From Pseudomonadota bacterium (GTDB lineage: Bacteria; Pseudomonadota; Gammaproteobacteria; Steroidobacterales; Steroidobacteraceae): a DNA stretch of 64,000 nucleotides. The stretch's first letter is position 1, and each line of letters starts with the position of its first letter. The notes under the pieces were generated by a model. The model was given only the letters and a program-made list of their open reading frames with translations, was not told where the DNA came from and searched no databases. The position numbers and the translations under genes were made by a program. The stretch covers positions 124,001 through 188,000 of the forward strand of contig JAFEDU010000002.1 of NCBI GenBank assembly GCA_018241425.1. Reading direction: 5' to 3'. This document shows, piece by piece, positions 20,749-46,308 of this stretch.

Positions 20749-20778
20749 AATCCGATTGTCCGAGAGCACCGATCAGCT

Positions 20779-21067: not shown

Positions 21068-21955
21068 CTAGCCTTTTGCTCGTTTGCAGCCCAAGAGCCG
21101 CCTGAGGACATTCGGTGGGCTTCTTCGCTGGGCCGTAATGGCATAGAAGGATTCAAACACGTGCGGAACGGTTCCGTACTTGAGTAGCTGTCCGCTGCGC
21201 ATCTCATCCTGGACGACAACCTCCGGCACCACTGCGAGCGCGCCGGAATCTCGCGCTAGCAACCGGAGTAGGGCCATGTCATCGACCTCGGCGTAGATGT
21301 TAACGTTGACGCCGCATTTCTCGCACCATAGATCAAAGTGACTGCGAATATCGCTGCTGGGGCCCGGTACGACGAGCGCCTGACCGCTCAGATCCTTGGG
21401 AATTTGAAACGCCTCTCCCTTACTTCGCGGCGGCCCAACAACGCAGACTGTTTGGCGGGCGATGCGCTGACATCGCCAGGGATGGCGCGCGTCGATTACA
21501 GCGGGACGGTTGGCGAACACCACATCGAGCTGATGGACACGAAGTCGCTCAAGCAACTCCTCAATGCTTCCCGAAACCACACTAAGGCGAAGGTCTTTGT
21601 CCGCGAGGAGTGGGCGAAGCAGGTTTTCCAGAAAGTTGCGCGATAGAGTCGCTACTGCGCCGATCCTGAGCTCCTGAAGTGTCCGGCCGTCGCCGGCGCG
21701 CACGGTTGCCATCAGCTCCTGGCCAAGGGTGAAAATGCTGTCCGCGTAGTCAAGGACAGTCGCGCCGAACTGCGTGAGCTTCAGCCGGCGGTCGATCCGA
21801 TCGAACAATGGCTGGCCGAGATAGCTCTCAAGAGCGCGGATCTGCGCGGAGAGCGCTGACTGCGAAAGATGCAGCTGCTCAGCAACCCGAGTCAGATGAC
21901 CCTCCTTGGCGACCGCCCAGAAGTAATGCAAATGGCGGAAATTGAGATTGCGCAT
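21068..21955 (-). CDS. LysR-family regulator of the DAB operon
   Basis: A 295-residue LysR-type regulator. The N-terminal HTH spans residues 1-65 with the family pattern HLHYFWAVAKEGHLTRVAEQLHLSQ broken by conserved Ala and Leu positions. The effector-binding domain follows. It is divergent from dabB with 96 bp between the starts, and an exact 6-bp inverted repeat (GCACAA, one base, TTGTGC) lies in that gap. LysR genes next to DAB transporters are common and are thought to respond to inorganic carbon status. The C-terminus ends beside the island's right border. Confidence 0.9.
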   Translation of the reverse strand: MRNLNFRHLHYFWAVAKEGHLTRVAEQLHLSQSALSAQIRALESYLGQPLFDRIDRRLKLTQFGATVLDYADSIFTLGQELMATVRAGDGRTLQELRIGAVATLSRNFLENLLRPLLADKDLRLSVVSGSIEELLERLRVHQLDVVFANRPAVIDARHPWRCQRIARQTVCVVGPPRSKGEAFQIPKDLSGQALVVPGPSSDIRSHFDLWCEKCGVNVNIYAEVDDMALLRLLARDSGALAVVPEVVVQDEMRSGQLLKYGTVPHVFESFYAITAQRRSPPNVLRRLLGCKRAKG

Positions 21956-21974
21956 GCCAGTGTTCCAAAAAATC

Positions 21975-21987
21975 GCACAAGTTGTGC
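21975..21987. promoter_or_regulatory. Palindromic operator candidate in the LysR-dabB gap
   Basis: GCACAA-G-TTGTGC is a perfect 6+6 dyad with one central base, placed 20 bp upstream of the LysR start and about 65 to 75 bp upstream of dabB. The position suits autoregulation of the LysR gene and activation of dabB. No direct evidence ties it to this regulator. Confidence 0.5.
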
Positions 21988-22060
21988 TTTCTAATCTATT
22001 TTACGTGCTCGCCGGCCGACCGCACACTCCTGGCGTGCTATCGGTTGCCGGGTGCGAATC

Positions 22061-23626
22061 ATGTTCGGGCCATACTGGTGGTGGATGCCTCCCGCGATGT
22101 ACTTGGCGGGTGCCGGATGGGCAGCACTGAAGTTCTTCCGGCCGTCGTATGTCGTGATCGTGGTGACCTCGGTGGCTCTGTTGATGCAGTGCGGCCTGTC
22201 GGTTTCCGTGTTGCCCATTGCCCCACTCGAGCCCGGCGTCCTAGGCCCCGTCGGGATTGTGGCGCTACTTGTCAGTTTCTTGGGCTGGATTATCGGTAGG
22301 TTTTCGGCGCGATATCTCGAGGGGGAGTCTGGCCAGGGGCGGTATGCGATCGCGCTCCTGGCGACACTCGCTGCAGTCAATGCAGTGATCGTGAGTGCGG
22401 ATCTCGGCTTACTGATTGCGTGTTGGGTGCTGAGCAGTGTTGGCCTCCACCATCTGCTGACCTTCTACTCTGATCGGGCCCCTGCCGTAGTGGCAGCCCA
22501 CAAAAAGTTCCTTTCGGCCCGTCTCGCCGAGGTATGCCTCGTGGCTGGGGCAGCCTTGATCTATCGCGAATGGGGCACTTTGAGCATGGCTTCGATCGCC
22601 GATCACGCGCGGTCGCTGGAGGTGCCGAGCGCTGGCATCACTGCAGCCGCCTTCCTGCTTGCACTCGGTGCCATTCTGAAATCCGCGCAGCTGCCGCTGC
22701 ACGGGTGGTTGATTCAGGTGATGGAGGCCCCGACGCCCGTGTCCGCGTTACTGCACGCCGGCATCGTGAACCTGGGTGGCTTCGTCATGATCCGGCTCGC
22801 CCCTCTGATCAGCCACGTTCCCGCCGCTCAAGCGCTGCTGGTGCTTGTCGGGAGCCTCACCGCCGTGCTTGCGGGCCTGGTCATGATGACGCGGATCAGC
22901 ATCAAGGTACGACTCGCATGGTCCACGTGCTCGCAGATGGGATTCATGCTGATGGAGTGCGGACTGGGCCTCTACGACCTGGCTCTCCTGCACCTTGTCG
23001 CTCACTCACTCTACAAAGCCTACGCGTTCCTGACGGCAGGAGAGGCCGTCACCGCCACCCGACAGCGAGCGCTGCGCGCGCTCGATACCGGTGACCTTCC
23101 CGGCAGCGTCGCGCGACGTGTGCTGGCCCTGCCGGCCGCCGTGGCGCTTGTACTCGGCTCAGCCTTCGCATGGCATCAGCTTTTCCGCACGGCACCGGTT
23201 CCGCCCGTCGCCCTGCTGGTCATCGCGGTGGGACTGGCCACATTGTTCTGGGAATCGGGCCAGAACCCTGTCCAGTTGACAGTGCGTAATGCGCTCGCGG
23301 TTCTGGCACTGACGCAGCTCTATCTCACATGGCATCTCGTGGCCGGGACACTCGTCGGCCGCTTGTCCGCCGGTACTATCTCGGGTCCGCTCAGTATCTG
23401 GGTCGGACTGTGCTTCATCGTCCTGTACACGCTGCAGGGGATCATCTCCGGTGCGCCCTCCAGCGGCCTCGTGCGAGTTCTGTACCCCTGGGTGTACGGG
23501 GGCTTCTACCTGGATGAAAGCGTCACCCGATTCACCTTCCGCATCTGGCCCGCCAACCTGCGTCACCAGGATCCGGATCTCACTTCATCCTTCAATGCCG
23601 TCGCAGCAAAGGGAGAGCACACGTGA
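22061..23626 (+). CDS. dabB: DAB inorganic carbon transporter, membrane subunit DabB
   Basis: A 521-residue membrane protein of the proton-conducting NuoL/MrpA family, with about 14 helices and the conserved Lys and His in KSAQLPLHGWL and LLHAGIVNLGG. Next to a DabA protein it is DabB, the cation-driven subunit that powers vectorial CO2 hydration to bicarbonate. Start is ATG 22061; GTG 22052 is also in frame. The TGA stop overlaps the GTG of dabA (GTGA). Confidence 0.9.
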   Translation: MFGPYWWWMPPAMYLAGAGWAALKFFRPSYVVIVVTSVALLMQCGLSVSVLPIAPLEPGVLGPVGIVALLVSFLGWIIGRFSARYLEGESGQGRYAIALLATLAAVNAVIVSADLGLLIACWVLSSVGLHHLLTFYSDRAPAVVAAHKKFLSARLAEVCLVAGAALIYREWGTLSMASIADHARSLEVPSAGITAAAFLLALGAILKSAQLPLHGWLIQVMEAPTPVSALLHAGIVNLGGFVMIRLAPLISHVPAAQALLVLVGSLTAVLAGLVMMTRISIKVRLAWSTCSQMGFMLMECGLGLYDLALLHLVAHSLYKAYAFLTAGEAVTATRQRALRALDTGDLPGSVARRVLALPAAVALVLGSAFAWHQLFRTAPVPPVALLVIAVGLATLFWESGQNPVQLTVRNALAVLALTQLYLTWHLVAGTLVGRLSAGTISGPLSIWVGLCFIVLYTLQGIISGAPSSGLVRVLYPWVYGGFYLDESVTRFTFRIWPANLRHQDPDLTSSFNAVAAKGEHT

Positions 23627-26100
23627 CGACGAGCGCGCAAGCGAGCGACGCCATCGTGACAGCGGCAATCGAAGCTGCGTGTCGTTCGATCGCCCCGAAT
23701 TGGCCCTTGGACCGGCAAATCGCCGTGAGTCCGTACTGGGGGCGGGTTTCCGAACCGTTCGAGCGGGCACTCATGCGTCTGCATCGGCAGATCGGCGCCG
23801 CCCCGGCGATGTCCGCGAGTTACTACACGAATGCTTGGGAGTCAGCGACGATCAAGCCGCAGCACCTGGCGCGGGCCGGGCAGGAGTCAGGCCTCCAGCT
23901 CGGACCCGAAGCATTGGTCGATGCGCTACGCAGTGAGCCTCACGCTGGACCCTCCCTACGCCTGCTCTCCGACTGTGCGGATGCGGAGCGCGACCGGCGG
24001 TATGAGCCAACTTGGCGCGAGGCGATCACGCAGCAGGTGAGTCAGCACTGTGCCGCTTACTTTGACCGGGATCAGGCGGACTGGCATCTGCGGCCCCGCG
24101 CGGGTCTCTATGCCAGCTGGCGCGAAGCCCTTTGTCAGGATCATTCGATCGCACTTCTGATGCACGTACCGGACATTCGGGAACGGGCACGGCAGCTTCC
24201 GCTGAGTGCGCGGGAGACGATTGAATGGGCAGTAGCTACGTTGGCTGTTCCTCCAGAGTCCGCGAGGGAACTCTTCGAGGTAGTTCTACTTCGCATCAAT
24301 GGGTGGGCGGCGTGGTGCGCCTACCTGCGCTGGGAAGCCGAGCTCGGCGGCGCGACTGACGACCAGATCGTCGATTTGCTCGCGATCCGGTTGGCGTGGG
24401 AAGGCTTGCTCGATGACGGTCGACGCGACGCGCGCTCCCGGTGGGGAACCTGGCAACGCCTGTGGTCGACCCGAATTGCTAAGGAACAAGGCAGGCCAAT
24501 GCCGATAGCGCTTGTCTGGCAGCGAGCTCACGAGATCGCCTATCAGGATCGATTGTTCACCCAATTGACGCAGAGGGATCCCCACCGTCCAGTCGAGCCG
24601 CCAGCGCCTGTTCGCACACAAGTCGTGTTTTGTATCGATGTACGCTCCGAGCGCTTGCGGCGCGCGCTCGAAGCGGTTGAACCCGGGATACACACTCTTG
24701 GCTTTGCCGGGTTCTTTGGCCTCCCGATTCGCTATACGCCCATTGGAACCCAGGCGATGCGCCCGCAGCTCCCGGGATTGCTTGCACCGACGCTTGATGT
24801 AACGGAAACGACCGGAAACGACGATCTGGACCGCTCCGTCCGCGCCCGACGCCAGGCGCGACTAGGTGCGACTCAGAGCCTTCGCCCCTTCCAGCGCACG
24901 CCGGCGGCGGCGTTCACAATCGTGGAATCCCTGGGCCTCGCCTACGTCGGCAAGGTCCTGCGTGCGAGCTTCTCGCATCAGCAGTCGAAATTGGAGACGG
25001 AGGGCCTTGCCGGTTACGGTGTCAAGCAGCTGCGCCCCGACCTCGTGCTCACGGACTCTGCGGCGGTTGCCCGTCGCGTGGATCTCGCCGCATCCATCCT
25101 TCGAGCGATGAGCTTAACGTCGGGCTTTGCCCGTCTGGTGGCCCTCGTCGGGCACGGGAGCCTGAGCGTCAACAATCCGCACGCGGCAGGTCTCGATTGC
25201 GGCGCCTGCGGGGGTCAAACCGGCGCCATCAATACGCGCGTTCTAGCTCGAGTCCTCAATGATCCTGCAGTACGGCACGGGCTTGCGGAGCGCGGAATCG
25301 TCATCCCCGATACCACGGTTGTGGTCGCCGCCCTTCACAACACGACAACGGACGCCGTACAGGTCTTCGATGGCGCCGATGTCCCTGAGACGCATCAAGG
25401 GGACCTTGCAAGCTTGACACGGAGTCTCAGAATCGCTGGCGACCGCACACGGGAGGAGCGTGCGGCCAGCCTGGGCCTGGTTGAGCAGAAGGGCAATCCA
25501 CGCGCGCTGATGCGCTCGCTTTCACACCGTGCTCGGGATTGGTCGCAGACGCGCCCCGAGTGGGGGCTCGCCGACAACGCCGCGTTCATCGTGGCGCCAC
25601 GCGCGCGGACTCGTGGGATAGACCTGCAGGGCCGCAGCTTCCTGCACGACTACCGCTGGCAAGACGACACGGACGGTGCCGTTCTGGAACTCGTCATGAC
25701 GGCCCCGATGATCGTTACACACTGGATCAACCTGCAGTACTACGCCTCGACAGTGGCTCCGCGCCACTTCGGCAGCGGCAACAAGGTCCTGCACAACGTA
25801 GTGGGAGGTCGTATCGGCATATTCGAGGGGAACAGCGGAGATCTTCGGATCGGACTGCCCAGTCAGTCAGTACACGACGGGGCGCGCTGGATGCACGACC
25901 CGCTCCGCCTGTCAGTTGTGATTGATGCCCCGCGCAACATGATTGAGCGGGTGCTCCAGCACCATTCTCCGGTGCGCCAGTTGCTGGATAACGAGTGGCT
26001 GTACCTCTATCGATGGGAGGGGGCGAGCATCGAGCGCTACCTGCGCGGCAATTGGCAGGTGTGGGCGGAATCCTCATGCCCCCGCGCCGCTGCAGCATGA
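23623..26100 (+). CDS. dabA: DAB inorganic carbon transporter, zinc subunit DabA (DUF2309)
   Basis: An 825-residue DUF2309/UPF0753 protein, the beta-carbonic-anhydrase-like subunit of the DAB complex. The zinc-site residues are visible: C337 and D339 in FCIDVRSE, H511 in GHGS and C526 in GLDCGACGG. Their spacing matches the C351/D353/H524/C539 set of Halothiobacillus DabA closely. DabA with DabB hydrates CO2 irreversibly in the cytoplasm to trap bicarbonate. The GTG start overlaps dabB and the TGA overlaps the ATG of cysD, so all three are coupled. Confidence 0.94.
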   Translation: MTTSAQASDAIVTAAIEAACRSIAPNWPLDRQIAVSPYWGRVSEPFERALMRLHRQIGAAPAMSASYYTNAWESATIKPQHLARAGQESGLQLGPEALVDALRSEPHAGPSLRLLSDCADAERDRRYEPTWREAITQQVSQHCAAYFDRDQADWHLRPRAGLYASWREALCQDHSIALLMHVPDIRERARQLPLSARETIEWAVATLAVPPESARELFEVVLLRINGWAAWCAYLRWEAELGGATDDQIVDLLAIRLAWEGLLDDGRRDARSRWGTWQRLWSTRIAKEQGRPMPIALVWQRAHEIAYQDRLFTQLTQRDPHRPVEPPAPVRTQVVFCIDVRSERLRRALEAVEPGIHTLGFAGFFGLPIRYTPIGTQAMRPQLPGLLAPTLDVTETTGNDDLDRSVRARRQARLGATQSLRPFQRTPAAAFTIVESLGLAYVGKVLRASFSHQQSKLETEGLAGYGVKQLRPDLVLTDSAAVARRVDLAASILRAMSLTSGFARLVALVGHGSLSVNNPHAAGLDCGACGGQTGAINTRVLARVLNDPAVRHGLAERGIVIPDTTVVVAALHNTTTDAVQVFDGADVPETHQGDLASLTRSLRIAGDRTREERAASLGLVEQKGNPRALMRSLSHRARDWSQTRPEWGLADNAAFIVAPRARTRGIDLQGRSFLHDYRWQDDTDGAVLELVMTAPMIVTHWINLQYYASTVAPRHFGSGNKVLHNVVGGRIGIFEGNSGDLRIGLPSQSVHDGARWMHDPLRLSVVIDAPRNMIERVLQHHSPVRQLLDNEWLYLYRWEGASIERYLRGNWQVWAESSCPRAAAA

Positions 26101-27002
26101 AGGATGTCCTTTCGCACCTGGAGCGCCTCGAGTCCGACGCGATTCACATCTTTCGTGAAGCGGTGGCGGAAGGCAGTAGGCCGGTGCTGCTGTTCTCCGC
26201 CGGAAAGGACTCGACCGTTCTCGCGCATCTGGCGCTGCGGGCGTTCTATCCGGCGCGTCCACCGTTTCCGCTCCTGCACATTGACTCGACCTGGGAGTTC
26301 AGGGCCGTACTCGAATTCCGCGATCGTTTCGCACGCCAGCATGGGTTTGAGGTCATAGCGGTAGCCAACGAGGAGGGTCGGGCAGCAGGATTAAATCCCT
26401 TCGATCACGGAGATGCCTACACGCATGTCATGCGCACCGAACCCCTCAAGAAGGCTCTGAACACAGGACAATACGACATCATCTTCGGAGGCGCGCGGCG
26501 CGACGAAGAAAAGTCGCGTGCCAAGGAGCGGATATTTTCGATCCGCAGCGCAGCGCACAGCTGGGACCCAAAACAACAACGGCCCGAGTTGTGGACCCTT
26601 TACAACACAAGGCTCGCTCAGGGGCAGACCGCGCGCGTATATCCGCTCTCCAACTGGACCGAGCATGACATCTGGAATTACATAATCGTCAAGGGAATCG
26701 ACCTGGTGCCGCTCTACTATTCAAGAGAGCGCCCGGTCGTTGAGCGTCGCGGCAGGTTCATCGTGATCGACGACGAGGCGCGGATGCGCTGGCGAGGGGT
26801 CGAACGGGTAGTCCACCGCAAGGTCCGGTTTCGCACGCTGGGGTGCTGGCCGGTCACTGGCGCCATTGAGTCGGAGGCGATGGATGCGCAGGGCGTCCTG
26901 GCGGAGATGCTGGTCGCATCCACGTCCGAACGAGAGGGCCGGGTGTCTGATGCCGAAGAAGGCGGTTCCCTCGAGCAAAAGAAGCGTGAAGGGTATTTCT
27001 GA
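26097..27002 (+). CDS. cysD: Sulfate adenylyltransferase subunit 2 (CysD) without CysN
   Basis: A 301-residue PP-loop enzyme of full CysD length. The P-loop-like FSAGKDST is at residues 33-40, then DSTWEF, GGARRDEEKSRAKERI, PLSNWTEHDIW, RFRTLGCWP and the C-terminal KKREGYF, all CysD hallmarks. CysD makes adenosine 5'-phosphosulfate from ATP and sulfate with the GTPase CysN, but no cysN or cysC follows. The ATG overlaps the dabA stop (ATGA), which ties it to carbon concentration genes. Whether it pairs with a distant CysN or has another role is unknown. Confidence 0.93.
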   Translation: MKDVLSHLERLESDAIHIFREAVAEGSRPVLLFSAGKDSTVLAHLALRAFYPARPPFPLLHIDSTWEFRAVLEFRDRFARQHGFEVIAVANEEGRAAGLNPFDHGDAYTHVMRTEPLKKALNTGQYDIIFGGARRDEEKSRAKERIFSIRSAAHSWDPKQQRPELWTLYNTRLAQGQTARVYPLSNWTEHDIWNYIIVKGIDLVPLYYSRERPVVERRGRFIVIDDEARMRWRGVERVVHRKVRFRTLGCWPVTGAIESEAMDAQGVLAEMLVASTSEREGRVSDAEEGGSLEQKKREGYF

Positions 27003-27190
27003 TCACTGCCTCGCGGCAGGGCGCCGCCGTGGTCTGCATGGCGCGTTGTGGTGCGCCGGATACGCAGGCGCTGACGATGATGTTACGAAACGGGTCGTGC
27101 AGCGCTTATCGCCCGTCCAAGTTGAAAAGGCGACCGCAATGGATCGGCGTCAAATGTGAACTGGTCGACCGATAGGGGGTTTCCCCTACC

Positions 27191-30079
27191 ATGCCCGATC
27201 GCGTCGCGAGCCTTTCCCTGGCAAGTGCCTTAATTATCCAGGGTCTTGCCACTCAATCTCCTGAGCCAACGGCCGATAAGCTCGGCATGGATTGCCCCGA
27301 ACTCGCCGAACGCAGTGTCCCGCAGCGTCCGCTGAAGGCCGCCCTGAGGCTCGAAGCCAGTGTTGCACCCAACTACCGCTTGATGATCGGCGTTTGTGCC
27401 CTGGCGGTGATCGGCCTGTCGTTTGCCGTCGCGGTCCTTGCCAAGTTTCTGATCAGCAGCTTCGAGGTCATCGAAACCAAGGAGATGCGTCAGAAGACCG
27501 CGCAAATCCTGCAGGCGCTCGATGCAGACTTGCGGCAGCTGCACGTCAGCAATCGAGATTACGCAGAGTGGGACGATTCGGTGTCCTATCTCGACACCCG
27601 CAATCCGGCCTACATCTCTGCCAACTTCACGCGTGAGACGCTCGCGGGCATGCGGGTGGACGTCGTTTGGATGATCGACAAAGACGGGAACGATGTCTAT
27701 TCAACGTATTTTGATCGTCACAAAGGTCAGGTCGTTTCGCCCGCGCCGCGCCAGCTTCTCGATCCGCTGGTTCGCTTCAACCGCTCCCGGGACTTTGCGA
27801 CGCAAGGCAATCGCAAGCCTACCCAGCTAATCGTGAGCACCGTGGCCGGTCCCGCTGCTGTCGCTGTCCAGGAGATTAAGCGGACTGACGGAGAAGCCCC
27901 AACGGGGGCGACGCTCATCTTCATGCGCTTCATCGCCGATGAAGAAATGGAACGTGTCAGGCAAACGAGTCAGATGCCCCTCACGATGCGCTACCTGCGC
28001 GGCCCAGAAGACCGCTCGAAACTGCCCTCGGCCGTACAATCCTGGCTGGCTTCCGATGAGTCAGCTGACGATGCCTTCGTCTGGGCCTCCGACCCCACGT
28101 CCATCAATGCCTTCCTGTTGCTGCGCAACATGGACGGCAACCCGATCGCGCTCCTGTCAACCACCGCGGGACGCGACACCTACGCGTTGGGGTTTCGCAC
28201 CACTGCCTACCTGCTGGGCTTCATTCTCGCGTTGACCGTTGCGTCCGGGGCGCTGGTCGTGTGGTTCGTGTTGCGCCTGCGACGGAGCTTCGCGGCGCGG
28301 TATGCCGCTGAGCAACGCTATCGCGTAATCGGCGAGCAGCTCGAGGAGGACGTGGTGCTCCTTGATGCGCGATCCCTGCACATCATCGATGCGAACAAGA
28401 CGGTGTTGTCGGCGCTTGAGTGCACGCCGGAGGAACTTGCGAACCACGGCGTGCAGGAGATCTTCCCCGAGATCGATCCGGACCGGCTCGCGCAGGTGGC
28501 ACGGAGGAAGCGCCGGATAGTGGCGGAATCCCGTGTGCGCCGGGCAGGGGGAAATTGGGTCGAAGCCGAGGTTGCCGTGACGATTGCGGAAATCAACGGC
28601 GAGCATGTGCTGGCACTGGTAGCGCATGATGTGAGCCATCGGCGCGAAGCGGAGCGGCGGGAGCGCGAGCACCGCCGCAAGTTGATGCGCGTCACTCAAC
28701 AGGACACCCTCACGGCACTGCCGAACCGATTGTTCCTCAACCGGCGGCTGCCTGCGGTGATGCGCCGATTGTCCGGCAGTCGCAAGCTGTTGGCGCTCAT
28801 CGCACTAGACCTGGATGACTTTAAGAGCATTAACGACTCACGCGGTCACCCCTGCGGCGATCAGGTGCTACAGATCATCGCCCGGCGCCTGCAGGCTGCA
28901 GTTGCCGCGCAGGACGTGGTAGCGAGAACCGGCGGCGATGAATTCATCGTCGTAGCCTCACTCATGCCCGATGTTGTCTCGATCGAGCAGCTCGCGGAGC
29001 GCCTGCAGGCTACGGTGGCAGCGCCCGTCGTTATTGGCGATGACCCGCTGCAAGTGACCGCGAGCATCGGAATCGCGATATTTCCGAATGACGGCTCCGA
29101 GGCGGATCTGCTCCTGAAGCGAGCCGAGATCGCCGTCTCCCACGCGAAGTCAGCCGGCAAGCGCTGCTTCCGGTTGTTCTCGGCCGAGATGGGGCAGATG
29201 GCCAACGAGCAGGCAGGGCTCGAGCAGGCGCTTCGCCAGGCAGCGGCCCGGCGCGAGATCCTGATGCACTACCAGCCAATCGTTGACATCCCTACGGGCC
29301 GCATCGTCTCGCTTGAGGCGCTCATGCGGTGGCAGCACCCCACCCAGGGGCTCATCGCTCCCGCACGCTTCATACCGATCGCCGAGCGTACGGGTTTGAT
29401 CGTCGAGCTTGGCGAGCATGCTCTCAGGCTGGTGCTTCAGCAGGTGCGCAACTGGCTCGACGCCAAGGTGCCGCTCGTGCCCGTGGCAGTCAACGTCTCA
29501 CCATTGCAGCTTGAGCGCGTCGATTTTTCGGCCCTTGTCTTCAGGCTTGCCCAGGAGGCGCGTGTCGAGCTTCGCTGGTTACGCTTCGAGATAACCGAGT
29601 CTGCGGTATTGCAGGAGAGCGGGCGTCTGCGCGAGACCCTTGCCGCGCTACGGGCCAAGGGGGCCCAGATCCTGATCGATGACTTCGGCACCGGCTATTC
29701 AAGTCTCAGTTATCTCAACCAGCTGCCCATCGATGTCCTCAAGATAGATCGTGCATTCATACGAGACTTGTCCGAGGAAAAGCCGGCGTCTCCCATTGTT
29801 ACTGCGGTCATCGACATGGCGAAGCGCCTGAAGCTGGCAACGGTAGCCGAGGGGATCGAAACGCCTGAGCAGGCCGCGCAGCTCTTGGAACTCGGTTGCA
29901 CCCTGGGGCAGGGCTATCTGTACAGCAAGCCGGTTGCCGCAGCGGCGATCCGGGCGATGCTGCAGGAGCTGCGATGCGAAGCTCCGCTAACGCAGACGGT
30001 ACTGATTCGTGCACTGGGGCAAAGCAGGTCGGAGTCGACGGCAGAACGCCTCTTGGCGCGCGCGAGCGCAGCAGGATAG
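27191..30079 (+). CDS. CHASE4-PAS-GGDEF-EAL cyclic-di-GMP protein
   Basis: A 962-residue inner membrane protein. After a roughly 60-residue N-terminal tail come a membrane helix (64-86), a periplasmic CHASE4-type sensor (about 90-290), a second helix (about 338-360), a PAS domain (about 375-480), GGDEF (intact GGDEF at 581-585) and EAL (EAL at 709-711 with DDFGTGYSS and the later AEGIET). Both active sites look competent. The allosteric I-site position reads AAQD instead of RxxD, so product inhibition is probably lost. The long tail ahead of the first helix makes ATG 27287 an alternative start. Neighbour links to the DAB or cytochrome genes are not evident. Confidence 0.92.
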   Translation: MPDRVASLSLASALIIQGLATQSPEPTADKLGMDCPELAERSVPQRPLKAALRLEASVAPNYRLMIGVCALAVIGLSFAVAVLAKFLISSFEVIETKEMRQKTAQILQALDADLRQLHVSNRDYAEWDDSVSYLDTRNPAYISANFTRETLAGMRVDVVWMIDKDGNDVYSTYFDRHKGQVVSPAPRQLLDPLVRFNRSRDFATQGNRKPTQLIVSTVAGPAAVAVQEIKRTDGEAPTGATLIFMRFIADEEMERVRQTSQMPLTMRYLRGPEDRSKLPSAVQSWLASDESADDAFVWASDPTSINAFLLLRNMDGNPIALLSTTAGRDTYALGFRTTAYLLGFILALTVASGALVVWFVLRLRRSFAARYAAEQRYRVIGEQLEEDVVLLDARSLHIIDANKTVLSALECTPEELANHGVQEIFPEIDPDRLAQVARRKRRIVAESRVRRAGGNWVEAEVAVTIAEINGEHVLALVAHDVSHRREAERREREHRRKLMRVTQQDTLTALPNRLFLNRRLPAVMRRLSGSRKLLALIALDLDDFKSINDSRGHPCGDQVLQIIARRLQAAVAAQDVVARTGGDEFIVVASLMPDVVSIEQLAERLQATVAAPVVIGDDPLQVTASIGIAIFPNDGSEADLLLKRAEIAVSHAKSAGKRCFRLFSAEMGQMANEQAGLEQALRQAAARREILMHYQPIVDIPTGRIVSLEALMRWQHPTQGLIAPARFIPIAERTGLIVELGEHALRLVLQQVRNWLDAKVPLVPVAVNVSPLQLERVDFSALVFRLAQEARVELRWLRFEITESAVLQESGRLRETLAALRAKGAQILIDDFGTGYSSLSYLNQLPIDVLKIDRAFIRDLSEEKPASPIVTAVIDMAKRLKLATVAEGIETPEQAAQLLELGCTLGQGYLYSKPVAAAAIRAMLQELRCEAPLTQTVLIRALGQSRSESTAERLLARASAAG

Positions 30080-30932: not shown

Positions 30933-32447
30933 TCAGGGGTTCCTTGCGGCGAAGTTCCCGCGCACCGCCGCAAGGGCAGCCCGTACGCCTGCATCCAGCT
31001 CCGGCGGGCGATGCGAGCGCACCAGCTGCTGCAGGTTTTCGTCGATGCGGGCCAGGAGATCATGGTCGGGTCGAGAGTCGGTGCTGAGCGGGAGACGGGC
31101 GCCGAAGTAGCGGCTCTGCCATACGTTCTCGCGACAGTGCCGGACGGTGTGCTGCTGTGCGAGATAGTTGCCGCGCGGGCCGACCGTCCGCGCTAGGCCG
31201 AGGGCCGTGCTCTCTTCATCCACCGTCAGCCCTTGCCACATGGTTCGCAGCAGTCCAGCCAGGTCATCGCAGAGTAAGAGGGCGTGCAGTGAATAGGTGA
31301 GCCCCTGGTCGAGGGAGCCGAGGTAGTCGAGGGTCGCCGGCCGGCTGAAGAAGCTCTGCATCATGCCGGCCGTGAGCTCAGTCACTGCGTCCTGGTTGAA
31401 GCGGCGTGCCGCCGAGTGACCGCCGGCACCGGTGAAAGAGGGCAGGCCGAGGTGCCGCCGCAGCTGACACATCGCGAGGTCCGCGAGCGAGGTCTGCGCG
31501 AAGTTGCCGATTCCGCCGGTGGCGGGCTCCATGAAGCACACATCGGAACTCCCGATGCAGAAGCTGCCGCGCCGGGCCTGCTGCGCCAGTACCATCGCCG
31601 CAAAGTCGGTGGCGAGGCTGTTGACGATGGTCCCGGCGGTCGTAATTGGAGTCGAGGCGCCCCCGATCGGCAGCGTGCCGACGCTCACCGGGATGCCATG
31701 GCGCGCTGCCGTGATGATCTGGTCGCAGTGCGTGCGGTGATAGTTCAGAGGCAATGGGGTGATGATCTGCAGGAAATAGGGCTTCTCCGCGAGCGGCGCC
31801 GCGCCACCCCGGATGGCAGAGGCCATCGCGATGGCCACTTCCAGTGAGGCCGCGTGCTCGCACAGGTACTCGAGCGGTTTGGCGGTGTTCTCGGCCATGA
31901 TGGCGAACTCTTCGATCTCGCCATGGATGTCCGAACGAGCCACGTTCTTGCAGGCAACGCAGACGGCGTCGATGTTCGGCAACGCATCCGCCACCCGCGT
32001 GATCAGCGCAAGGTCATCCCCGGTGCTGTCGCGCGGGATGCCGGTGTCGAGGTCGTAAACCCTGATACAGGTCATCCCGCAGGCGAACCATGTATGGTCA
32101 CAATCCAGCTGGAGCGCGCGGGTTCCCGTACGGTCCCAGAGCTTCACGCTGCGAGGGGTGCCGGCGAGTGCCTCCCGAACGAGTGCGGGGTCGAAGCGTA
32201 CGACGCCATCGGCATCCACTCGGCAGCCCGCGGCCTGTAGCAGCGAGACCGCCTCGCCCTCCAGGTCGAACACCACGCCGCTTTGATCCATCAAGCTGAG
32301 CGCGGATTCAATTAGTCCTTCGAGTTGTACCGTCGCGAGCGGCGCGTACGGGGCCGTGGCTCCCCTGTGAAGGCCTGCATCCGCAATCGCGGCGGGGGCC
32401 TCGCGGCGTAACACGGGACGGCGGCCGGGTCGGGTCATGGGTCGCAT
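30933..32447 (-). CDS. Trimethylamine methyltransferase (MttB) family protein, non-pyrrolysine
   Basis: A 504-residue TIM-barrel protein of the MttB superfamily, recognised by ordered segments such as IPVSVGTLPIGGASTPIT, the Gly/Ala-rich GTIVNSLATDFAAMV, and GAGGHSAARRFNQDAVTE. There is no in-frame TAG, so it is not the pyrrolysine enzyme. Non-Pyl members demethylate quaternary amines such as glycine betaine or carnitine onto a corrinoid protein. No corrinoid protein or activase lies nearby. The ATG at 32447 has a strong GGAGG site. It is divergent from a trimethylamine-dehydrogenase-like gene, 89 bp apart. Confidence 0.88.
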   Translation of the reverse strand: MRPMTRPGRRPVLRREAPAAIADAGLHRGATAPYAPLATVQLEGLIESALSLMDQSGVVFDLEGEAVSLLQAAGCRVDADGVVRFDPALVREALAGTPRSVKLWDRTGTRALQLDCDHTWFACGMTCIRVYDLDTGIPRDSTGDDLALITRVADALPNIDAVCVACKNVARSDIHGEIEEFAIMAENTAKPLEYLCEHAASLEVAIAMASAIRGGAAPLAEKPYFLQIITPLPLNYHRTHCDQIITAARHGIPVSVGTLPIGGASTPITTAGTIVNSLATDFAAMVLAQQARRGSFCIGSSDVCFMEPATGGIGNFAQTSLADLAMCQLRRHLGLPSFTGAGGHSAARRFNQDAVTELTAGMMQSFFSRPATLDYLGSLDQGLTYSLHALLLCDDLAGLLRTMWQGLTVDEESTALGLARTVGPRGNYLAQQHTVRHCRENVWQSRYFGARLPLSTDSRPDHDLLARIDENLQQLVRSHRPPELDAGVRAALAAVRGNFAARNP

Positions 32448-32468
32448 GGACCACCTCCATACGGCAAA

Positions 32469-32483
32469 TTGCGCATTGCACAA
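32469..32483. promoter_or_regulatory. Near-palindrome between mttB-like and TMADH-like genes
   Basis: TTGCGCATTGCACAA is a 15-bp dyad with 12 matching positions, centred in the 89-bp divergent gap. Its place between the two starts suits a shared operator. The regulator is unknown; none is encoded beside these genes. Confidence 0.4.
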
Positions 32484-32536
32484 ACGTGCGGATCATCAGA
32501 GGATGCACGACCCTCCGCCAATACGGGCTTATCCGC

Positions 32537-34570
32537 ATGGATCAAGTCACGCAACCCGACGCGCGCTATCGCGTGCTCTTTGACCCAGTCCAGATCGGGC
32601 CCGTCATCGCACGCAACCGCTTCTATCAGGTGCCGCACTGTACGGGCATGGGTTATTCGCTGCCGCGAACGCTTGCCGCCATGCGCGGGATGAAGGCCGC
32701 AGGCGGCTGGGGTGTCGTTTGCACCGAGTACTGCTCGATTCACCCCACGTCAGACGACCTGCCGCACCCTTTTGCCTCGCTGTGGGATGAGGGCGACACC
32801 CGCAATCTCGCTGCACTCGCTGAGGCCGTGCACGAACATGGATCGCTCGCGGGGGTAGAGCTCTGGCACGGCGGCAGCTACGTCGCCAACCTGGGAAGCC
32901 GGCAGCCGACCTTGGGCGTGCGTTCGATGCCGAGCCATGGCGAGCCCGTACAGTCCCAGCCGATGGACCGACGGGACATCCGTGAGCTGCGACGCTGGCA
33001 CGTCGAAGCGGCGCGCCGCGCACGGGCTGCGGGATTCGACATCGTTTACGTATACCCGGCGCACGGTTATCTGCTGTGGGAGTTCCTCTCACGCAGCCTT
33101 AACGGTCGCAGCGACGAGTACGGGGGGTCGCTTGAGAACCGCACGCGCCTGCTGCGCGAATTGCTGCAGGAGACCCGTGAGGCAGTCGGCGACAAGTGCG
33201 CCGTCGCCACGCGGTTCTCGGCCGATGGGCACGGCGAGGAGCACCTGAGCGGCAGCGAGGCGCGTGACGTCATCGGTGCTCTGGCGGAACTGCCCGACTT
33301 GTGGGATCTGGTGGTGAGCGACTACTACGGCCAGGAGATGGCCACTTCGCGGTTTGTGCCGGAGGCCTCGCTCGAGGAGAAAGTGCGGTACGTCAAGGCG
33401 CTCACCACGAAGCCCGTGGTCAGCGTCGGGCGTTTCACCTCCCCCGACACTATGGTTCGCCAGGTGCGCAGCGGCGTAATGGACCTGGTGGGCGCCGCCC
33501 GCCCCTCCATCGCCGACCCGTTTCTGCCCGAGAAGATCCGCACCGGAAGGCTGGAGGACATTCGCGAGTGCATCGGCTGCAACGTCTGCTACGCGTACAA
33601 CTACCGCGGCGCCGCGATCCGCTGCACACAGAACCCCACCATGGGCGAAGAGTGGCGGCGTGGCTGGCACCCGGAGCAGGTGCCGCCAGGCAGCGGCTCC
33701 GTACTCATCGTCGGGGCAGGGCCCGCGGGGCTCGAGGCCGCCCATATCCTGGGCAAGCGTGGCTTCAGGGTGTCGGTGGCGGAAGCGCGTAATGCGGCCG
33801 GTGGACGCGTCACCCTTGAAGCGCGCCTGCCTGGGCTCTCCGAGTGGGGGCGCGTGCGCGATTACCGGCTGGGCCAATTGCGCGGCCTTGCCAACGTCAC
33901 TGTTTACTTCGAAAGCAAGCTTACGGCGTCGGACGTGCGCGAGTTCGGCGCCGATCACGTGCTCATCGCAACCGGGGCGCACTGGCGCCGAGATGCCACG
34001 GGTCGCTCGCGCGCACAGCCACTAGCTTTCCCGGCGGCCAAGGTGCTCACCCCCGATGATATTCTGGCCGGAGCCCGCCCCGGCGGCAGCGTCGTCGTGT
34101 ACGACGACGACAACTACTACATGGGCCCTTCTATCGCGGTGCTGCTGGCGCGCAACGGAGCGCGCGTCAGCTACGTGACAACTGCGAGCACGGCAGGCGA
34201 GTGGAGCCACTACACCGGCGAGCAGCAGCGTGTTCAGGAGCAGCTGATCGAAGTCGGGGTCGAGATACTCGTCAGCCGCCTCATCGCCGCGTACGACGGC
34301 ACGACGATCGTTTTGGATGGAGCGTACGGCGGCCCTTCGCGTACCCTCGAGGCGAGCAGCGTGGTCCTTGTAACCTCACGTGAGCCGGACGAGGCGCTCT
34401 ACCGGCAGCTCTGCGACACCGCCGGCACTGATGCACCGGCGGGCATCCAGCGTATCGGCGACTGCCGGCAGCCCGGAATCATTGCTCATGCAGTCTACGC
34501 GGGCCATCGCGCCGCGCGTGAGCTCGACGTCGTGATGCCCGCGACCTCGCGGGACCGTCCCACCATATGA
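32537..34570 (+). CDS. Trimethylamine dehydrogenase-like flavoprotein (4Fe-4S, FMN)
   Basis: A 677-residue protein colinear with methylotrophic trimethylamine dehydrogenase: an Old Yellow Enzyme barrel, a 4Fe-4S site and C-terminal NAD/FAD-like domains. Residues aligned by motif are C35 in QVPHC (the covalent FMN cysteine), Y65, the Y173/H176 pair in VYPAH, and iron-sulfur ligands C345, C348, C351 and C363. The segment at the aromatic-bowl position after C351 reads YAYN rather than SRW, so the substrate is probably not trimethylamine but another tertiary amine or a betaine-derived product. ATG 32537 matches the family N-terminus; GTG 32486 would almost touch the divergent gene. Enzyme class is confident, substrate is not. 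Confidence 0.88.
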   Translation: MDQVTQPDARYRVLFDPVQIGPVIARNRFYQVPHCTGMGYSLPRTLAAMRGMKAAGGWGVVCTEYCSIHPTSDDLPHPFASLWDEGDTRNLAALAEAVHEHGSLAGVELWHGGSYVANLGSRQPTLGVRSMPSHGEPVQSQPMDRRDIRELRRWHVEAARRARAAGFDIVYVYPAHGYLLWEFLSRSLNGRSDEYGGSLENRTRLLRELLQETREAVGDKCAVATRFSADGHGEEHLSGSEARDVIGALAELPDLWDLVVSDYYGQEMATSRFVPEASLEEKVRYVKALTTKPVVSVGRFTSPDTMVRQVRSGVMDLVGAARPSIADPFLPEKIRTGRLEDIRECIGCNVCYAYNYRGAAIRCTQNPTMGEEWRRGWHPEQVPPGSGSVLIVGAGPAGLEAAHILGKRGFRVSVAEARNAAGGRVTLEARLPGLSEWGRVRDYRLGQLRGLANVTVYFESKLTASDVREFGADHVLIATGAHWRRDATGRSRAQPLAFPAAKVLTPDDILAGARPGGSVVVYDDDNYYMGPSIAVLLARNGARVSYVTTASTAGEWSHYTGEQQRVQEQLIEVGVEILVSRLIAAYDGTTIVLDGAYGGPSRTLEASSVVLVTSREPDEALYRQLCDTAGTDAPAGIQRIGDCRQPGIIAHAVYAGHRAARELDVVMPATSRDRPTI

Positions 34571-34813
34571 GTGCCTTGCACCCGGAATGTCGGTTCTGAG
34601 CACGCGCGGGTCCCAGTTGCCGCAGTCATCCCACTGAATTTGCGAGTAACCTGCGGGCGTCCATATTCCTCGATCGATCGAACAGGCGAACTCCGGCCAA
34701 CGTGGCACGCGCCACAACGTTCCGGAGAATGCCGCGAATGACAGTGCATTGAGGCGCGCTTTAGGAGCTCAGGCGCCAATGGGTCTTCGGCGGCCAGCTC
34801 GGGCAGGTTGCAG

Positions 34814-36118
34814 ATGAGTGAAGTCTTGATCGACGGCTCGTGGCGGCCCTCGCAGAGCCGTGCCGAGCAGCTGGTGACCAATCCGGCGACGCTCAGGCCG
34901 GTCGGCGCCACGGCGTCCTGCGACGCGCTGGACGCAGCCGTCGCGATGGCTGCGGCGCGGCGAGCGCTGGGCGACTGGAAAGGGCTTCCGCGGCAGACCC
35001 GGGTTGCGCTGCTGCGGCAGGCCGGTGTGACCCTCCAAGCGGACGCATCTGGGATTGCCGACCTGCAATCGCAGGAGAGTGGTCAGCCCGTCTTCGAATG
35101 CCTCGAGGCCGTGCATGCAGCCGCCCAGTGCCTGATTCAGGACGCCACCCGTCCGCGAGAGGAACCGGCGGTCGCACGAGCCCTGGTGCTCGACCCGGAC
35201 TACCCGCTGCTTGACTGGGCCTGCCGCGCGGTTTCCCTGATGGAAGAGGGCTGTACCCTGGTGTGTGCGGCCCCCCGCGCCGCCCCCCTGGCGATCCTGC
35301 GGGCCGTGCGATGCATCCAAGGGTTGCCGAACGGAGTCCTGAACGTCCTGGTCGCAAGTCCGGAGGCCGTGAGAGCGGGTGTCGGACGGCCTGCCGTCGA
35401 AGACGGAGCGTCCTCGCAGTCCCAGGCGGCCGCTGCCGGCGTGGACGGAGTGTTTGTGAGCGACGGCGCGGACCTTGACCGCACCCTGCGTGCGAGTGCC
35501 TCGCAGCGACTGTTCCACGCGGGGCAGCGCGCCGGGCAAAGCGCGCGGATATATGTCGAGGAGCGCATGGCGGGGGTTCTGGCAGACCGCCTGCACGAGT
35601 ACGTGGCGTTCCTTGAATGTGGCGATCCGCGCAACCCCGACACGGACCTGGGTCCGCTGCGGTCCTCTGCCGCGCTGGAGCAGGTCGAAGGCCAGGTCGG
35701 CCGTGCGCTGAAGTGCGGCGCGCTCCTTAAACTCGGTGGCCGCCGCTACCAGCCCTGGGGACTGCGCGGCTACTTCTTCCAGCCGACGGTCATGATCGAA
35801 GGGCGCGGCGCGGAGCGCGTACCGGATTGCGAGATCCACGGACCGGTATTGATCATCTCGCCCGTCCGTAACCTGGCAGAGGCGGTAAGCCAGGAAACGT
35901 TCCGGAGCCTGAGCTGCTTCGGCGGGCAGCTCGAAGCCCAGTTTCAGTCACTGAGCAGCGCGGGCGTCGAGTTCGAGTTCGGCGAGTCCCGTACGCCCCT
36001 GGAGCGGATCATGCGGGGTCTGCGTGGCCTGAGTGCCTCGCCCTTGCAGATCGAACCAGCCCCCGCGAATTCCCGGTCCGGGTTTCCCTACCGTTCGCCG
36101 CCCGGATCGCTGCGGTGA
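34814..36118 (+). CDS. Aldehyde dehydrogenase-fold protein lacking catalytic residues
   Basis: A 434-residue ALDH superfamily protein, shorter than usual (about 480-500). Fold landmarks are kept: NPATLRPVG, LPNGVLNVL, DTDLGPL, and EIHGPVL in place of EIFGPV. The catalytic set is gone: the Cys position reads Ala (A240 in FHAGQRAGQ), the ELGG(K) glutamate motif is absent, and the PWNFP asparagine site reads PDYP. It is intact with no stop, so probably a retained non-enzymatic homologue, perhaps structural or a scaffold. The gene follows the flavoprotein gene and overlaps the ferredoxin gene by 4 nt. ATG 34814 is preferred to TTG 34808. Confidence 0.8.
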   Translation: MSEVLIDGSWRPSQSRAEQLVTNPATLRPVGATASCDALDAAVAMAAARRALGDWKGLPRQTRVALLRQAGVTLQADASGIADLQSQESGQPVFECLEAVHAAAQCLIQDATRPREEPAVARALVLDPDYPLLDWACRAVSLMEEGCTLVCAAPRAAPLAILRAVRCIQGLPNGVLNVLVASPEAVRAGVGRPAVEDGASSQSQAAAAGVDGVFVSDGADLDRTLRASASQRLFHAGQRAGQSARIYVEERMAGVLADRLHEYVAFLECGDPRNPDTDLGPLRSSAALEQVEGQVGRALKCGALLKLGGRRYQPWGLRGYFFQPTVMIEGRGAERVPDCEIHGPVLIISPVRNLAEAVSQETFRSLSCFGGQLEAQFQSLSSAGVEFEFGESRTPLERIMRGLRGLSASPLQIEPAPANSRSGFPYRSPPGSLR

Positions 36119-36801
36119 CCGGTGCCGCCGCGAGCCTGTACGCGCGATTGTGCACGGCAGCGAGCGCGCGGGGATTGGGGTGCCGGGGCGGCTTTGCCGT
36201 CGAGGCCGGGGATACCTTGCCCGAAGTCGGCAATGAGCCGACACGGACTGTGGTGTTGCTCGGCTTCACCGGGGCGAAGCACTGGTCCGTCGTCCGTGCA
36301 TCGGTCGAGTTTTCGGATGGCCGGCCACACCCGCTGGATCGCTGGTCGGTACGCATGCTTACCGGGCTCGGCGCGGAATTTGATGCGCGGCCGCTGTTTC
36401 CCTTTGGCGGACCCCCGTGGTGGCCCTTCCAGCGGTGGGCGCAGCGGGCGGAAGTCCTCCACGCAAGCCCGCTGGGGATTCTCGTGCACCCCGAGTTCGG
36501 ACTGTGGCACGCATACCGGGGTGCGCTGTTGTTCGCGACTGAATTTCGGCTGCCGACGCCCGTGCGCTGGCCGTCACCCTGTGCGAGCTGCGCCGCGAAA
36601 CCCTGCATCGGGGGCTGCCCGGCCGGTGCGGTGACGGCCCGTGGTTTCGATCGCGGCGCCTGCGCGACGCACGTGGCCTCACCCCAGGGAATCGCCTGTC
36701 GCAGCGGGTGCCTTGCGCGCGCCAGCTGTCCCGTGGGCGCCTCGCACCGCTACGGACCGGAGCAGTCTGCGTTCCACATGCAGCAGCTCACAGCGACCTG
36801 A
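36115..36801 (+). CDS. Ferredoxin-like 4Fe-4S protein (QueG-like C-terminus)
   Basis: A 228-residue protein. The first 150 residues form a soluble domain with FPFGGPPWWPF and GLWHAYRGAL. The C-terminus carries two cysteine clusters, CASCAAKPCIGGCP and CRSGCLARASCP, which would bind 4Fe-4S centres as in epoxyqueuosine-reductase-type proteins. It overlaps the ALDH-like gene (GTGA), so the two are co-translated and could form a redox unit with the flavoprotein upstream. No catalytic role can be assigned. Confidence 0.75.
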   Translation: MTGAAASLYARLCTAASARGLGCRGGFAVEAGDTLPEVGNEPTRTVVLLGFTGAKHWSVVRASVEFSDGRPHPLDRWSVRMLTGLGAEFDARPLFPFGGPPWWPFQRWAQRAEVLHASPLGILVHPEFGLWHAYRGALLFATEFRLPTPVRWPSPCASCAAKPCIGGCPAGAVTARGFDRGACATHVASPQGIACRSGCLARASCPVGASHRYGPEQSAFHMQQLTAT

Positions 36802-44012: not shown

Positions 44013-44900
44013 TCAGGGTGCAATGGGCAGGTTCAGGTACTGCCGTGTCTGGCGGCCGGACATCACCTGCGCTCCCAGAGATTCGACGATTCGCACCGCA
44101 CGCTCGACCAGCTGACCGTTGGTGGCCAGCACTCCCCGGTCCAGGTAGAGATTGTCCTCGAGCCCCACGCGGGGGTTGCCGCCGAGCAGTACGGTCTGCG
44201 CCACCATGGGCATCTGCTGTCGTCCGACGCCGAACGCCGACCAGATGACGCCAGCCGGGAGTGCGGACTTGAGAGCCAGCATCGCCTCGGGCGTGGCAGG
44301 CGCCCCAAATCGGACCCCGAGGCACAGCTGGAACAGGGACGCAGGATCGAGCGCACCCTCGCCCAGCAGTTGCCTTGCGAGCTCGATGTGTCCGAGCTCG
44401 AATACCTCAACCTCGGGGCGCACGCCACTTTCGCGATAGCCCCGCGCCATCTCGCGGAGGTAACCGGGTGTCGTGCCGTAAAGCAGTTCGCCGAAGTTGA
44501 GCGAGCCACAGTCGAGCGTCCCGATCTCCGGTCGGAGCGCGATGATGTGCCGCATGCGCTCCTGGGGGCCGGCAAAGTCCGTGCCGGGAGCCAGCTCGAG
44601 CGGCCGCTCGCCGGGCCCGAAGACCAGATCGCCGCCCATGCCCCCCGTGAGATTGATGATCACTTCGCCATTGCGCTCGCGTATCCGCTCGACGACTTCT
44701 CGGAAAAGTGCCGGGTCGCGGCTCGCCTTCCCCGTCCGGGGATCGCGTACGTGCAGGTGAACGATCGCCGCACCAGCACCATGGGCCTCGAGCGCGGCGG
44801 CGGCGATCTGTGCGGGCGTCACAGGTACGTGGGGCGACTTGCTGGCCGAGTCGCCCGATCCGGTTACCCCGCAGGTGACGAAGACTGCGTCGCGGATCAT
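44013..44900 (-). CDS. Beta-keto acid cleavage enzyme (BKACE/DUF849)
   Basis: A 295-residue BKACE enzyme, which condenses a beta-keto acid with acetyl-CoA to give acetoacetate and a new acyl-CoA. The zinc residues H48 and H50 in VHLHVRDP and E248 in GLEDN are present. In carnitine users a BKACE member cleaves 3-dehydrocarnitine to betainyl-CoA and acetoacetate. It ends an operon after the NCS1 transporter, CaiD-like dehydratase and CoA ligase, supporting a quaternary-amine role. Substrate is inferred from neighbours. Confidence 0.9.
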   Translation of the reverse strand: MIRDAVFVTCGVTGSGDSASKSPHVPVTPAQIAAAALEAHGAGAAIVHLHVRDPRTGKASRDPALFREVVERIRERNGEVIINLTGGMGGDLVFGPGERPLELAPGTDFAGPQERMRHIIALRPEIGTLDCGSLNFGELLYGTTPGYLREMARGYRESGVRPEVEVFELGHIELARQLLGEGALDPASLFQLCLGVRFGAPATPEAMLALKSALPAGVIWSAFGVGRQQMPMVAQTVLLGGNPRVGLEDNLYLDRGVLATNGQLVERAVRIVESLGAQVMSGRQTRQYLNLPIAP

Positions 44901-44910
44901 GGCCGTCCGC

Positions 44911-46308
44911 TCAGGCGTCGAGGCCGCGATCGGCGACCCGCGCGGCGCGAAACTCGGGGCCGAGATCGACCGAGCGATAGCTCAAATAGTAGAGGGCAGC
45001 TGCGACCGCGAGTCCCACCGGCATGGACACATCCGTGCCTCCGAGCGCCCGGGAGACTGGTCCCTGGTACAGCTCGGTGTTCACAAACGGCAGCATCGCG
45101 AGGAACCCCGCAGCGTAGGCGGAGAGCCCACGCCAGTTCCACCGCCCGTAGAGTCCGCGCGGATTGAAGATCTCGCGGATCGAGTAGTGAGTGCGGCGTA
45201 TGAGATAGAAGTCCACCAGGTTGATGGCGGTCCAGGGCGTGAAGAGACACAGGAGTATCGCCAGCAGATCGCTGAAGCCGCGCACGAAGTCACCTGAGAC
45301 CCCGCGCGCAATCGCGTGGGCGCAAACCCCCGCAAGTAGGACGGCGACGATGCGCTTTCTGCGGGTCGCCTGCACCGGGTGGAAGGAGTCCGCCACACTG
45401 AGCAGGGTGAGGGAGGCGCCGTAGTAGTTGAGGCTCGTCATCGTGAGGAGTCCAAGGAGGGCCACTCCAAGCAATAGACCTCCGAACCCGGGGTAAACCG
45501 CATCGCCGGCCGAGCTCAGTGCCGCCGCGACCGATAGTCCCGGGAATGCCGCGGCGGCCGCAGAGCCGACGAGCATCGCCCAGAGACTTCCCGCAAAAGC
45601 GCCACCGTAGGTCCAGTAGAAGGGCGCGCGGACGCCCGCCGAACGCGGCAGGTAGCGCGAGTAGTCCGAGACGTAGAACGCTCCGCTGAGCTGGTAAGCC
45701 GCGGCGGCGAAGAATTGCGTGAGGAATGCGGTGGTCGGGAAGGGACGTAGGGACCACGACGATGACGGCAGCGGCAGATGCACGGAGGCGGCGGCGGTGA
45801 ACATCGCAAGGACCGCGATCATGAGGTATGCGAGCCAGCGCTGTGCACGATGGATGAGGTCGTAGCCGACCGCGGATATGCCGAGCGCGACGAGGGTGAA
45901 GAACGTGCCGCAACCGCGCGCGCTGAGGCCCGTGAGCCGCGATGCCGTGTCGCCGCCGAGCACCTCATTAAAGGCGTTGTAGCCGACGTAGCTGATGAGG
46001 GCGATCACCCAAACCAGGAGCGCCCCCATGTACCCGAACTGCGGCCGCGACTGGATCATCTGCGGCAGCCCGAGCTGCGGACCCTGCGCGGAGTGCAGTG
46101 CCATGAAGAACGTTCCCAGTGCGCATCCCAGCGTAGCCGCGATTGCAGTCCACAGTAGATTCGCGCCCAGGGCCACGCCGATCACTCCCGTCGCGACGCT
46201 GGCCAGCTGCGTCCCCCCGGTGAACCATACCGGCCACAGGTGCCAGGGATGGCCATGGCGCTCGGCGGCCGGCACATAGTCGATCGAGCGGGTCTCGATG
46301 CGGATCAT
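44911..46308 (-). CDS. NCS1-family transporter
   Basis: A 465-residue transporter with about 12 membrane helices. The GLPQMIQSRPQFGYMGALL segment and a central GFSDLLAILLCLFTPWTAINLVD are typical of NCS1 (purine/cytosine/allantoin/hydantoin type) permeases. The ATG overlaps the CaiD-like stop (ATGA) and BKACE follows 10 nt later. By context it imports the amine or acid used by the cluster rather than a nucleobase, but this is inference. Confidence 0.88.
   Translation of the reverse strand: MIRIETRSIDYVPAAERHGHPWHLWPVWFTGGTQLASVATGVIGVALGANLLWTAIAATLGCALGTFFMALHSAQGPQLGLPQMIQSRPQFGYMGALLVWVIALISYVGYNAFNEVLGGDTASRLTGLSARGCGTFFTLVALGISAVGYDLIHRAQRWLAYLMIAVLAMFTAAASVHLPLPSSSWSLRPFPTTAFLTQFFAAAAYQLSGAFYVSDYSRYLPRSAGVRAPFYWTYGGAFAGSLWAMLVGSAAAAAFPGLSVAAALSSAGDAVYPGFGGLLLGVALLGLLTMTSLNYYGASLTLLSVADSFHPVQATRRKRIVAVLLAGVCAHAIARGVSGDFVRGFSDLLAILLCLFTPWTAINLVDFYLIRRTHYSIREIFNPRGLYGRWNWRGLSAYAAGFLAMLPFVNTELYQGPVSRALGGTDVSMPVGLAVAAALYYLSYRSVDLGPEFRAARVADRGLDA

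Follow-up and report, generated by a model that had tools for sequence, protein, structure and literature searches.

The interval 30933-36801 of the window (the 64,000-nucleotide stretch of contig JAFEDU010000002.1 analyzed here) harbours four genes in total: one for an MttB-family protein (P0001) and, divergently oriented, one for a flavoprotein of the trimethylamine dehydrogenase (TMADH)/histamine dehydrogenase family (P0002); the interval extends to 36801 because the genes for an aldehyde dehydrogenase (ALDH)-fold protein (P0003) and an Fe-S protein (P0004), which overlap by 4 bp, also lie inside it. The flanking genes, coding for a cytochrome c protein (left) and a DUF885 protein (right), are apparently unrelated. 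The individual features are:

30933-32447, minus strand (ATG at 32447): MttB-family gene, P0001, 504 aa (PF06253, Foldseek, tree)
32448-32536, no strand: 89-bp spacer between the MttB and flavoprotein genes, putative promoter region (read directly)
32537-34570, plus strand: TMADH/histamine-dehydrogenase-family flavoprotein, P0002, 677 aa (profile, PDB matches, residue alignment)
34808 (TTG) or 34814 (ATG) to 36118, plus strand: ALDH-fold protein without catalytic Cys, P0003 (PF00171)
36115-36801, plus strand: di-[4Fe-4S] protein, P0004, 228 aa (eight invariant Cys)

P0001 belongs to the MttB superfamily (185.7 bits against PF06253, COG5598; curated cut-off 25) and, as an earlier note on this DNA had proposed, to its non-pyrrolysine members: the score against the pyrrolysine-containing trimethylamine methyltransferases (TIGR02369) is 230.4 bits and thus below the cut-off of 525, and the pyrrolysine column is occupied by His in P0001 and by His, Tyr, Gln, Thr or Ala among the orthologues of its clade. 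With an AlphaFold model of P0001 (alignment of 12 orthologues, pLDDT 69, pTM 0.75), matches 1-10 of a Foldseek search against the PDB were all of the MttB/MtgB family, the top ones being MttB 7xcl (E 2e-25), MtgB 2qne/9yce and the Sinorhizobium meliloti homologue. Five MttB genes are present in the genome, P0001 sharing about 25% identity with the products of the other four. A tree comparing MtgB of Desulfitobacterium hafniense, the genome's own MttB1-3 and the P0001 clade separates the latter (support 100/100) from a group of D. hafniense MtgB with MttB1-3 (100/99). P0001 is accordingly placed outside the MtgB glycine betaine methyltransferase group, the depth of its clade being unsure because the branches are long. 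Compared with D. hafniense MtgB (2qne, 9yce), fold and family are the same, but identity is about 22-25%, the clade is separate and the active-site loops differ.

The best PDB matches of P0002 are histamine dehydrogenase 3k30 (692 bits), 6l6j (661 bits) and TMADH (537 bits). Alignment with orthologues, paralogues and PDB references (TMADH numbering) revealed conservation of Cys30, Tyr60, Tyr169, His172 and the 4Fe-4S ligands Cys345/348/351/364 of TMADH (1djn, 43% identity), but exchange of Trp264 for Tyr, Trp355 for Asn and Asp267 for Glu. Judged from these residues, P0002 is predicted to carry 6-S-cysteinyl FMN and a 4Fe-4S cluster, agreeing with the earlier description, as does the difference at the substrate site: the aromatic bowl Tyr60/Trp264/Trp355 of TMADH reads Tyr/Tyr/Asn. 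Because of this altered bowl, trimethylamine is not favoured as substrate. Histamine dehydrogenase (3k30, 6de6) yields the highest score (51% identity to 3k30), but its substrate residues Gln65, Trp267 and Asp358 (PMC10180351) are Tyr, Tyr and Asn in P0002.

The divergent orientation of the MttB and flavoprotein genes, likewise described before, recurs in 15 of 17 loci, i.e., in 14 distinct relatives and the window; at the two other MttB loci (L036, L038) the adjacent flavoprotein gene is absent. Since the pair is kept in 14 relatives, it represents a real unit and more than a chance arrangement.

No gene for a corrinoid protein or RamA was found by searching the window, and to this extent the earlier statement that carrier and activase are missing holds. 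The nearest corrinoid-protein match is MetH at C14:118910, some 5 kb beyond the left end of the window and about 36 kb from the pair. A genome-wide search for mtgC/mttC-type proteins retrieved mtgC on contig C11, contrary to the inferred lack of a carrier. The locus at C11:807-815k encodes (i) a GlxA-type AraC regulator, (ii) MtgC (C11:808600-809298), (iii) DUF1638, PF13769 and MTHFR C-terminal domain proteins, (iv) MetF2 and MtgD, and (v) a RACo/RamA activase, thus providing the MtgC, MtgD, RamA-like and DUF1638 components of an MtgBCD-type system. The core MttB1 (mtgB) at C11:820k is 67% identical to mtgB of S. meliloti, which, like Paracoccus aminovorans, possesses an equivalent set (53-75% identity) in a single cluster.

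Growth of Ruegeria pomeroyi on glycine betaine requires MtgC and MtgD, the genes being scattered, and up to seven MttB homologues occur per genome (Mausz et al. 2025, PMC12478193); the published model accordingly assumes unlinked MtgB/C/D and several MttB homologues per MtgC (PMC12478193). RamA-like and DUF1638 proteins have been tied to B12 reactivation (Price et al. 2018, PMC5764234). In view of this scattered layout in known aerobes, the absence of a local carrier is not unusual in such bacteria. The present genome resembles MtgBCD of R. pomeroyi and the split methionine synthase of Phaeobacter inhibens (PMC12478193, PMC5764234) in its largely unlinked genes, MttB-family protein(s), stand-alone MtgC, MtgD, MetF2, RamA-like activase and DUF1638, and in having several MttBs per MtgC. 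Unlike in these systems, P0001 is outside the MtgB group and fixed to a TMADH-family enzyme of the covalent-FMN type, which is unmentioned in PMC12478193 and PMC5764234.

Co-occurrence was analyzed in 200 genomes of the same family, 21 with and 179 without P0001. MttB1 is present in 20 of the 21 carriers versus 69 of the 179 others (Fisher 3e-7) and MtgC (E ≤ 1e-60) in 18 versus 69 (Fisher 4e-5), relatedness not being corrected in either value. Moreover, mtgC is adjoined in this genome by genes for a TonB receptor, a BetI-type TetR regulator and an NCS1 permease; in four relatives, homologues of these genes (60%, 71% and 68% identical, respectively) are located beside the MttB pair.

The pair thus probably represents an accessory arm of the MtgBCD network for cobalamin-dependent betaine demethylation in a proteobacterium whose gene set is of the aerobic type, MtgC being supplied in trans and the flavoenzyme catalyzing the next step. 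Computation has established the gene content, the pairing, the conservation of residues, the partner set across the genome, the shared neighbours and the co-occurrence, and from these we infer methyl transfer to MtgC, step order, substrate, electron acceptor and the roles of P0003 and P0004. P0001 would demethylate a quaternary ammonium compound once, placing the methyl group on the cobalt of the stand-alone MtgC encoded on the other contig; MtgD would pass it from MtgC to tetrahydrofolate for oxidation by MetF2, while RamA, and perhaps also P0004, would keep the cobalt reduced. P0002 may then dehydrogenate the resulting tertiary N-methyl amine, with release of the next methyl as formaldehyde and electron flow via the 4Fe-4S cluster to an acceptor resembling electron transfer flavoprotein. 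Of the unusual route for a quaternary or tertiary amine suggested in the earlier note, one part is supported: the constant pairing and the carnitine genes near the pair in relatives favour demethylation of a quaternary amine, followed by that of a tertiary one. Its unusualness through lack of a corrinoid protein is not supported, given the complete MtgC/MtgD/RamA/DUF1638/MetF2 set on C11 and the TonB/TetR/NCS1 neighbours in common.

Several observations speak against the accessory-arm assignment. The P0001 clade shares only about 25% identity with other MttBs and its branch has a length of 4 changes per column; therefore substrate and even methyl acceptor of P0001 could differ. Three of the 21 carriers are without an MtgC match at the above threshold, two of them being incomplete bins (G217, G347) and one (G079) having a more distant stand-alone corrinoid protein. 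The P0003 and P0004 genes are not kept beside the pair in relatives, most of the latter have no carnitine-type neighbours (see below), and no operator common to pair and mtg cluster was found in this genome. Corrinoid partners elsewhere with matched regulation had been named as a finding that would overturn the proposed route; the genes were indeed found, but a tie in regulation is suggested only by the neighbour genes.

As substrate, a betaine of carnitine, γ-butyrobetaine or glycine betaine catabolism is most likely. In four relatives (L034/L047, L035, L039, L046), the pair is accompanied by a fusion of carnitine 3-dehydrogenase with thioesterase (529 bits against NF005716, cut-off 592) and, contig extent permitting, by a thioesterase and a BKACE protein; in the remaining relatives, the pair is without carnitine-type neighbours. 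The homologous set (dehydrogenase-thioesterase fusion, BKACE, thioesterase) is located at C11:571-579k in this genome. It corresponds to carnitine catabolism via CdhABC or the fused carnitine dehydrogenase-thioesterase of S. meliloti, which normally stops at glycine betaine; an MttB/flavoenzyme pair alongside CdhABC-type catabolism is not described in the literature covered, and no publication joining MttB, trimethylamine dehydrogenase, demethylation and corrinoid was found. The window itself contains, 10 kb from the pair, a possibly related operon, its link to the pair being a tentative one:

44013-49194, minus strand: second operon of carnitine-type catabolism
47098-49194, minus strand: ADP-forming acyl-CoA synthetase (CoA ligase)
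46305-47135, minus strand: enoyl-CoA hydratase (ECH) resembling crotonobetainyl-CoA hydratase
44911-46320, minus strand: NCS1 permease
44013-44900, minus strand: BKACE

CoA ligase, hydratase and BKACE of this operon are 44-53% identical to their counterparts at C11:570.9-575.2k of the same genome (G000).

A betaine other than, or additional to, glycine betaine appears favoured, since core mtgB, sarcosine oxidase and dimethylglycine dehydrogenase (DMGDH)-like genes are already present. P0001 may demethylate carnitine, γ-butyrobetaine or crotonobetaine, with P0002 oxidizing the nor-compound; this possibility is tentative, the presence of carnitine 3-dehydrogenase, thioesterase, BKACE, BetI-type TetR and NCS1 permease genes beside the pair in the four relatives, and of the CoA ligase/hydratase/NCS1/BKACE operon in the window, being countered by the fact that these neighbours would already convert carnitine into glycine betaine with no demethylation beforehand and that the pairs of other relatives do without them. 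Such activities would resemble those of MtcB and MtyB of Eubacterium limosum, which, together with its MtpB, are non-pyrrolysine MttB paralogues each serving a single betaine (PMC8604678, PMC12478193). Compared by description, these proteins are, like P0001, non-pyrrolysine paralogues of MttB, E. limosum being an anaerobe. We know of no flavoenzyme partner of MtpB, MtcB or MtyB.

Somewhat more doubtful is a second route from glycine betaine via dimethylglycine to sarcosine, with P0001 as divergent glycine betaine methyltransferase and P0002 as dimethylglycine demethylase. The carnitine genes beside the pair in relatives would supply glycine betaine, as in the pathway described for Pseudomonas aeruginosa and S. 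meliloti (PMC12482172), and genes for sarcosine oxidase alpha (C11:793206-796211) and a DMGDH-like C-terminal domain (C11:798136) are located just upstream of the mtgC cluster. However, 20 of the 21 carriers already possess core mtgB (MttB1), a member of the group of D. hafniense MtgB, while P0001 falls outside this group, and several genes with DMGDH-like C-terminal domains are present in the genome, so that a second enzyme for the dimethylglycine step would be redundant.

P0003 scores 159.7 bits against PF00171, but contains the motif GQRAG in place of GQxC and thus lacks the catalytic Cys of active ALDHs. Five homologues are likewise without Cys at this position and have the other invariant motifs in common. 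A decaying pseudogene is not favoured, since the Cys-less homologues are conserved and dN (0.53) is below dS (1.57, near saturation); by its sequence, the family looks like a retained pseudoenzyme. Members of this Cys-less ALDH-fold family (window 34808-36118; L091, L092, L095, L098, L100) adjoin genes of the P0004 family.

P0004 displays two 4Fe-4S-like motifs, which together comprise eight invariant Cys, and a weak but repeated similarity to MMACHC and QueG, centred on an HPxxGLWHAYRGAL motif. Matches to the MMACHC profile are weak for P0004 alone (E 0.095) and for 9 of 15 homologues (best E 0.0042), as are those to the PDB (MMACHC, E 0.09-0.17; QueG, E 0.14); a single-sequence structure model reached a pLDDT of only 34. 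A function as B12 reductase is hence a lead only. In S. meliloti and P. aminovorans, the gene that immediately follows mtgB encodes a P0004 homologue; in G079, genes for MttB, Cys-less ALDH and a P0004 homologue are consecutive in one direction. P0004 is present in 13 of the 21 P0001 carriers versus 14 of the 179 other genomes. All four genes might form an undescribed module, which we regard as rather unlikely: its deep clade of MttB proteins would act on a betaine beyond those of known MttB enzymes and be tightly paired with a TMADH-family demethylase of the covalent-FMN type. Both would be backed by a novel B12 reactivase, which would unite an MMACHC-like domain with two 4Fe-4S clusters, have a catalytically inactive ALDH as partner and belong to mtgB operons of aerobes.

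Use of another corrinoid acceptor by P0001 (the MetH module or a different B12 protein), so that methionine synthesis would be supplied with methyl groups, is improbable: MetH lies about 36 kb from the pair and three carriers have no close MtgC, but MetH is widespread, and MtgC and MttB1 matches are far commoner in carriers than in non-carriers. A route without any corrinoid protein, which the lack of such a gene in the window had suggested, is very improbable and was rejected upon detection of the MtgC/MtgD/RamA/DUF1638 set on C11, with neighbour genes in common and unlinked genes also in known aerobic systems.

Compared to the systems described, the new elements are the deep MttB clade, its fixed flavoenzyme partner, and the conserved Cys-less ALDH together with the MMACHC-like Fe-S protein. 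Aerobic bacteria possess as many as seven MttB homologues for one MtgC, with substrates yet to be assigned (PMC12478193). A clade that is constantly paired with an oxidative enzyme and, in some relatives, has carnitine neighbours shortens the list of candidate betaines and makes the idea of one corrinoid hub with many MttB arms directly testable. The locus also draws attention to a so far unstudied family of Fe-S proteins associated with mtgB.

A paralogue of P0002 (50-52% identity), with Ala at the flavin-Cys position, is encoded 3 kb past the right end of the window. At this locus (L043:3855-7102, i.e., C14:189854-193101), the gene of a GbcA-like Rieske oxygenase is co-directional and overlapping with that of the TMADH-family flavoprotein without flavin Cys. 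The homologue of the paralogue adjoins a core-type MttB instead in two relatives, so the flavoenzyme family accompanies either kind of first-step demethylase. Plasmid homologues of P0002 exist in Parasedimentitalea (Rieske/ABC-transporter neighbours) and S. meliloti BL225C (record without annotation).

The MttB-flavoprotein spacers of four relatives (L034:9831-9877, L035:9822-9868, L039:9845-9891, L046:10317-10363) contain two CTATATNNNNATATAG-like palindromes at a distance of 31 bp. The CTATATNNNNATATAG-like pair is confined to this spacer in L034/L047, L035, L039 and L046, i.e., in relatives with a BetI-type TetR gene close by; the spacer of the window is without this pair. A TPR-sulfotransferase fusion is encoded between two MttB/flavoprotein pairs of relatives (L034:5507-7510). 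Left of the pair, the G+C content decreases to 57-64% at 14000-30000, compared to about 70% further to the left, possibly indicating an island; this stretch contains a tRNA-Met (at 15937), DabA/NDH5-like inorganic carbon transporter genes (22052-26100) and genes for CysD and a CHASE4-PAS-GGDEF-EAL protein.

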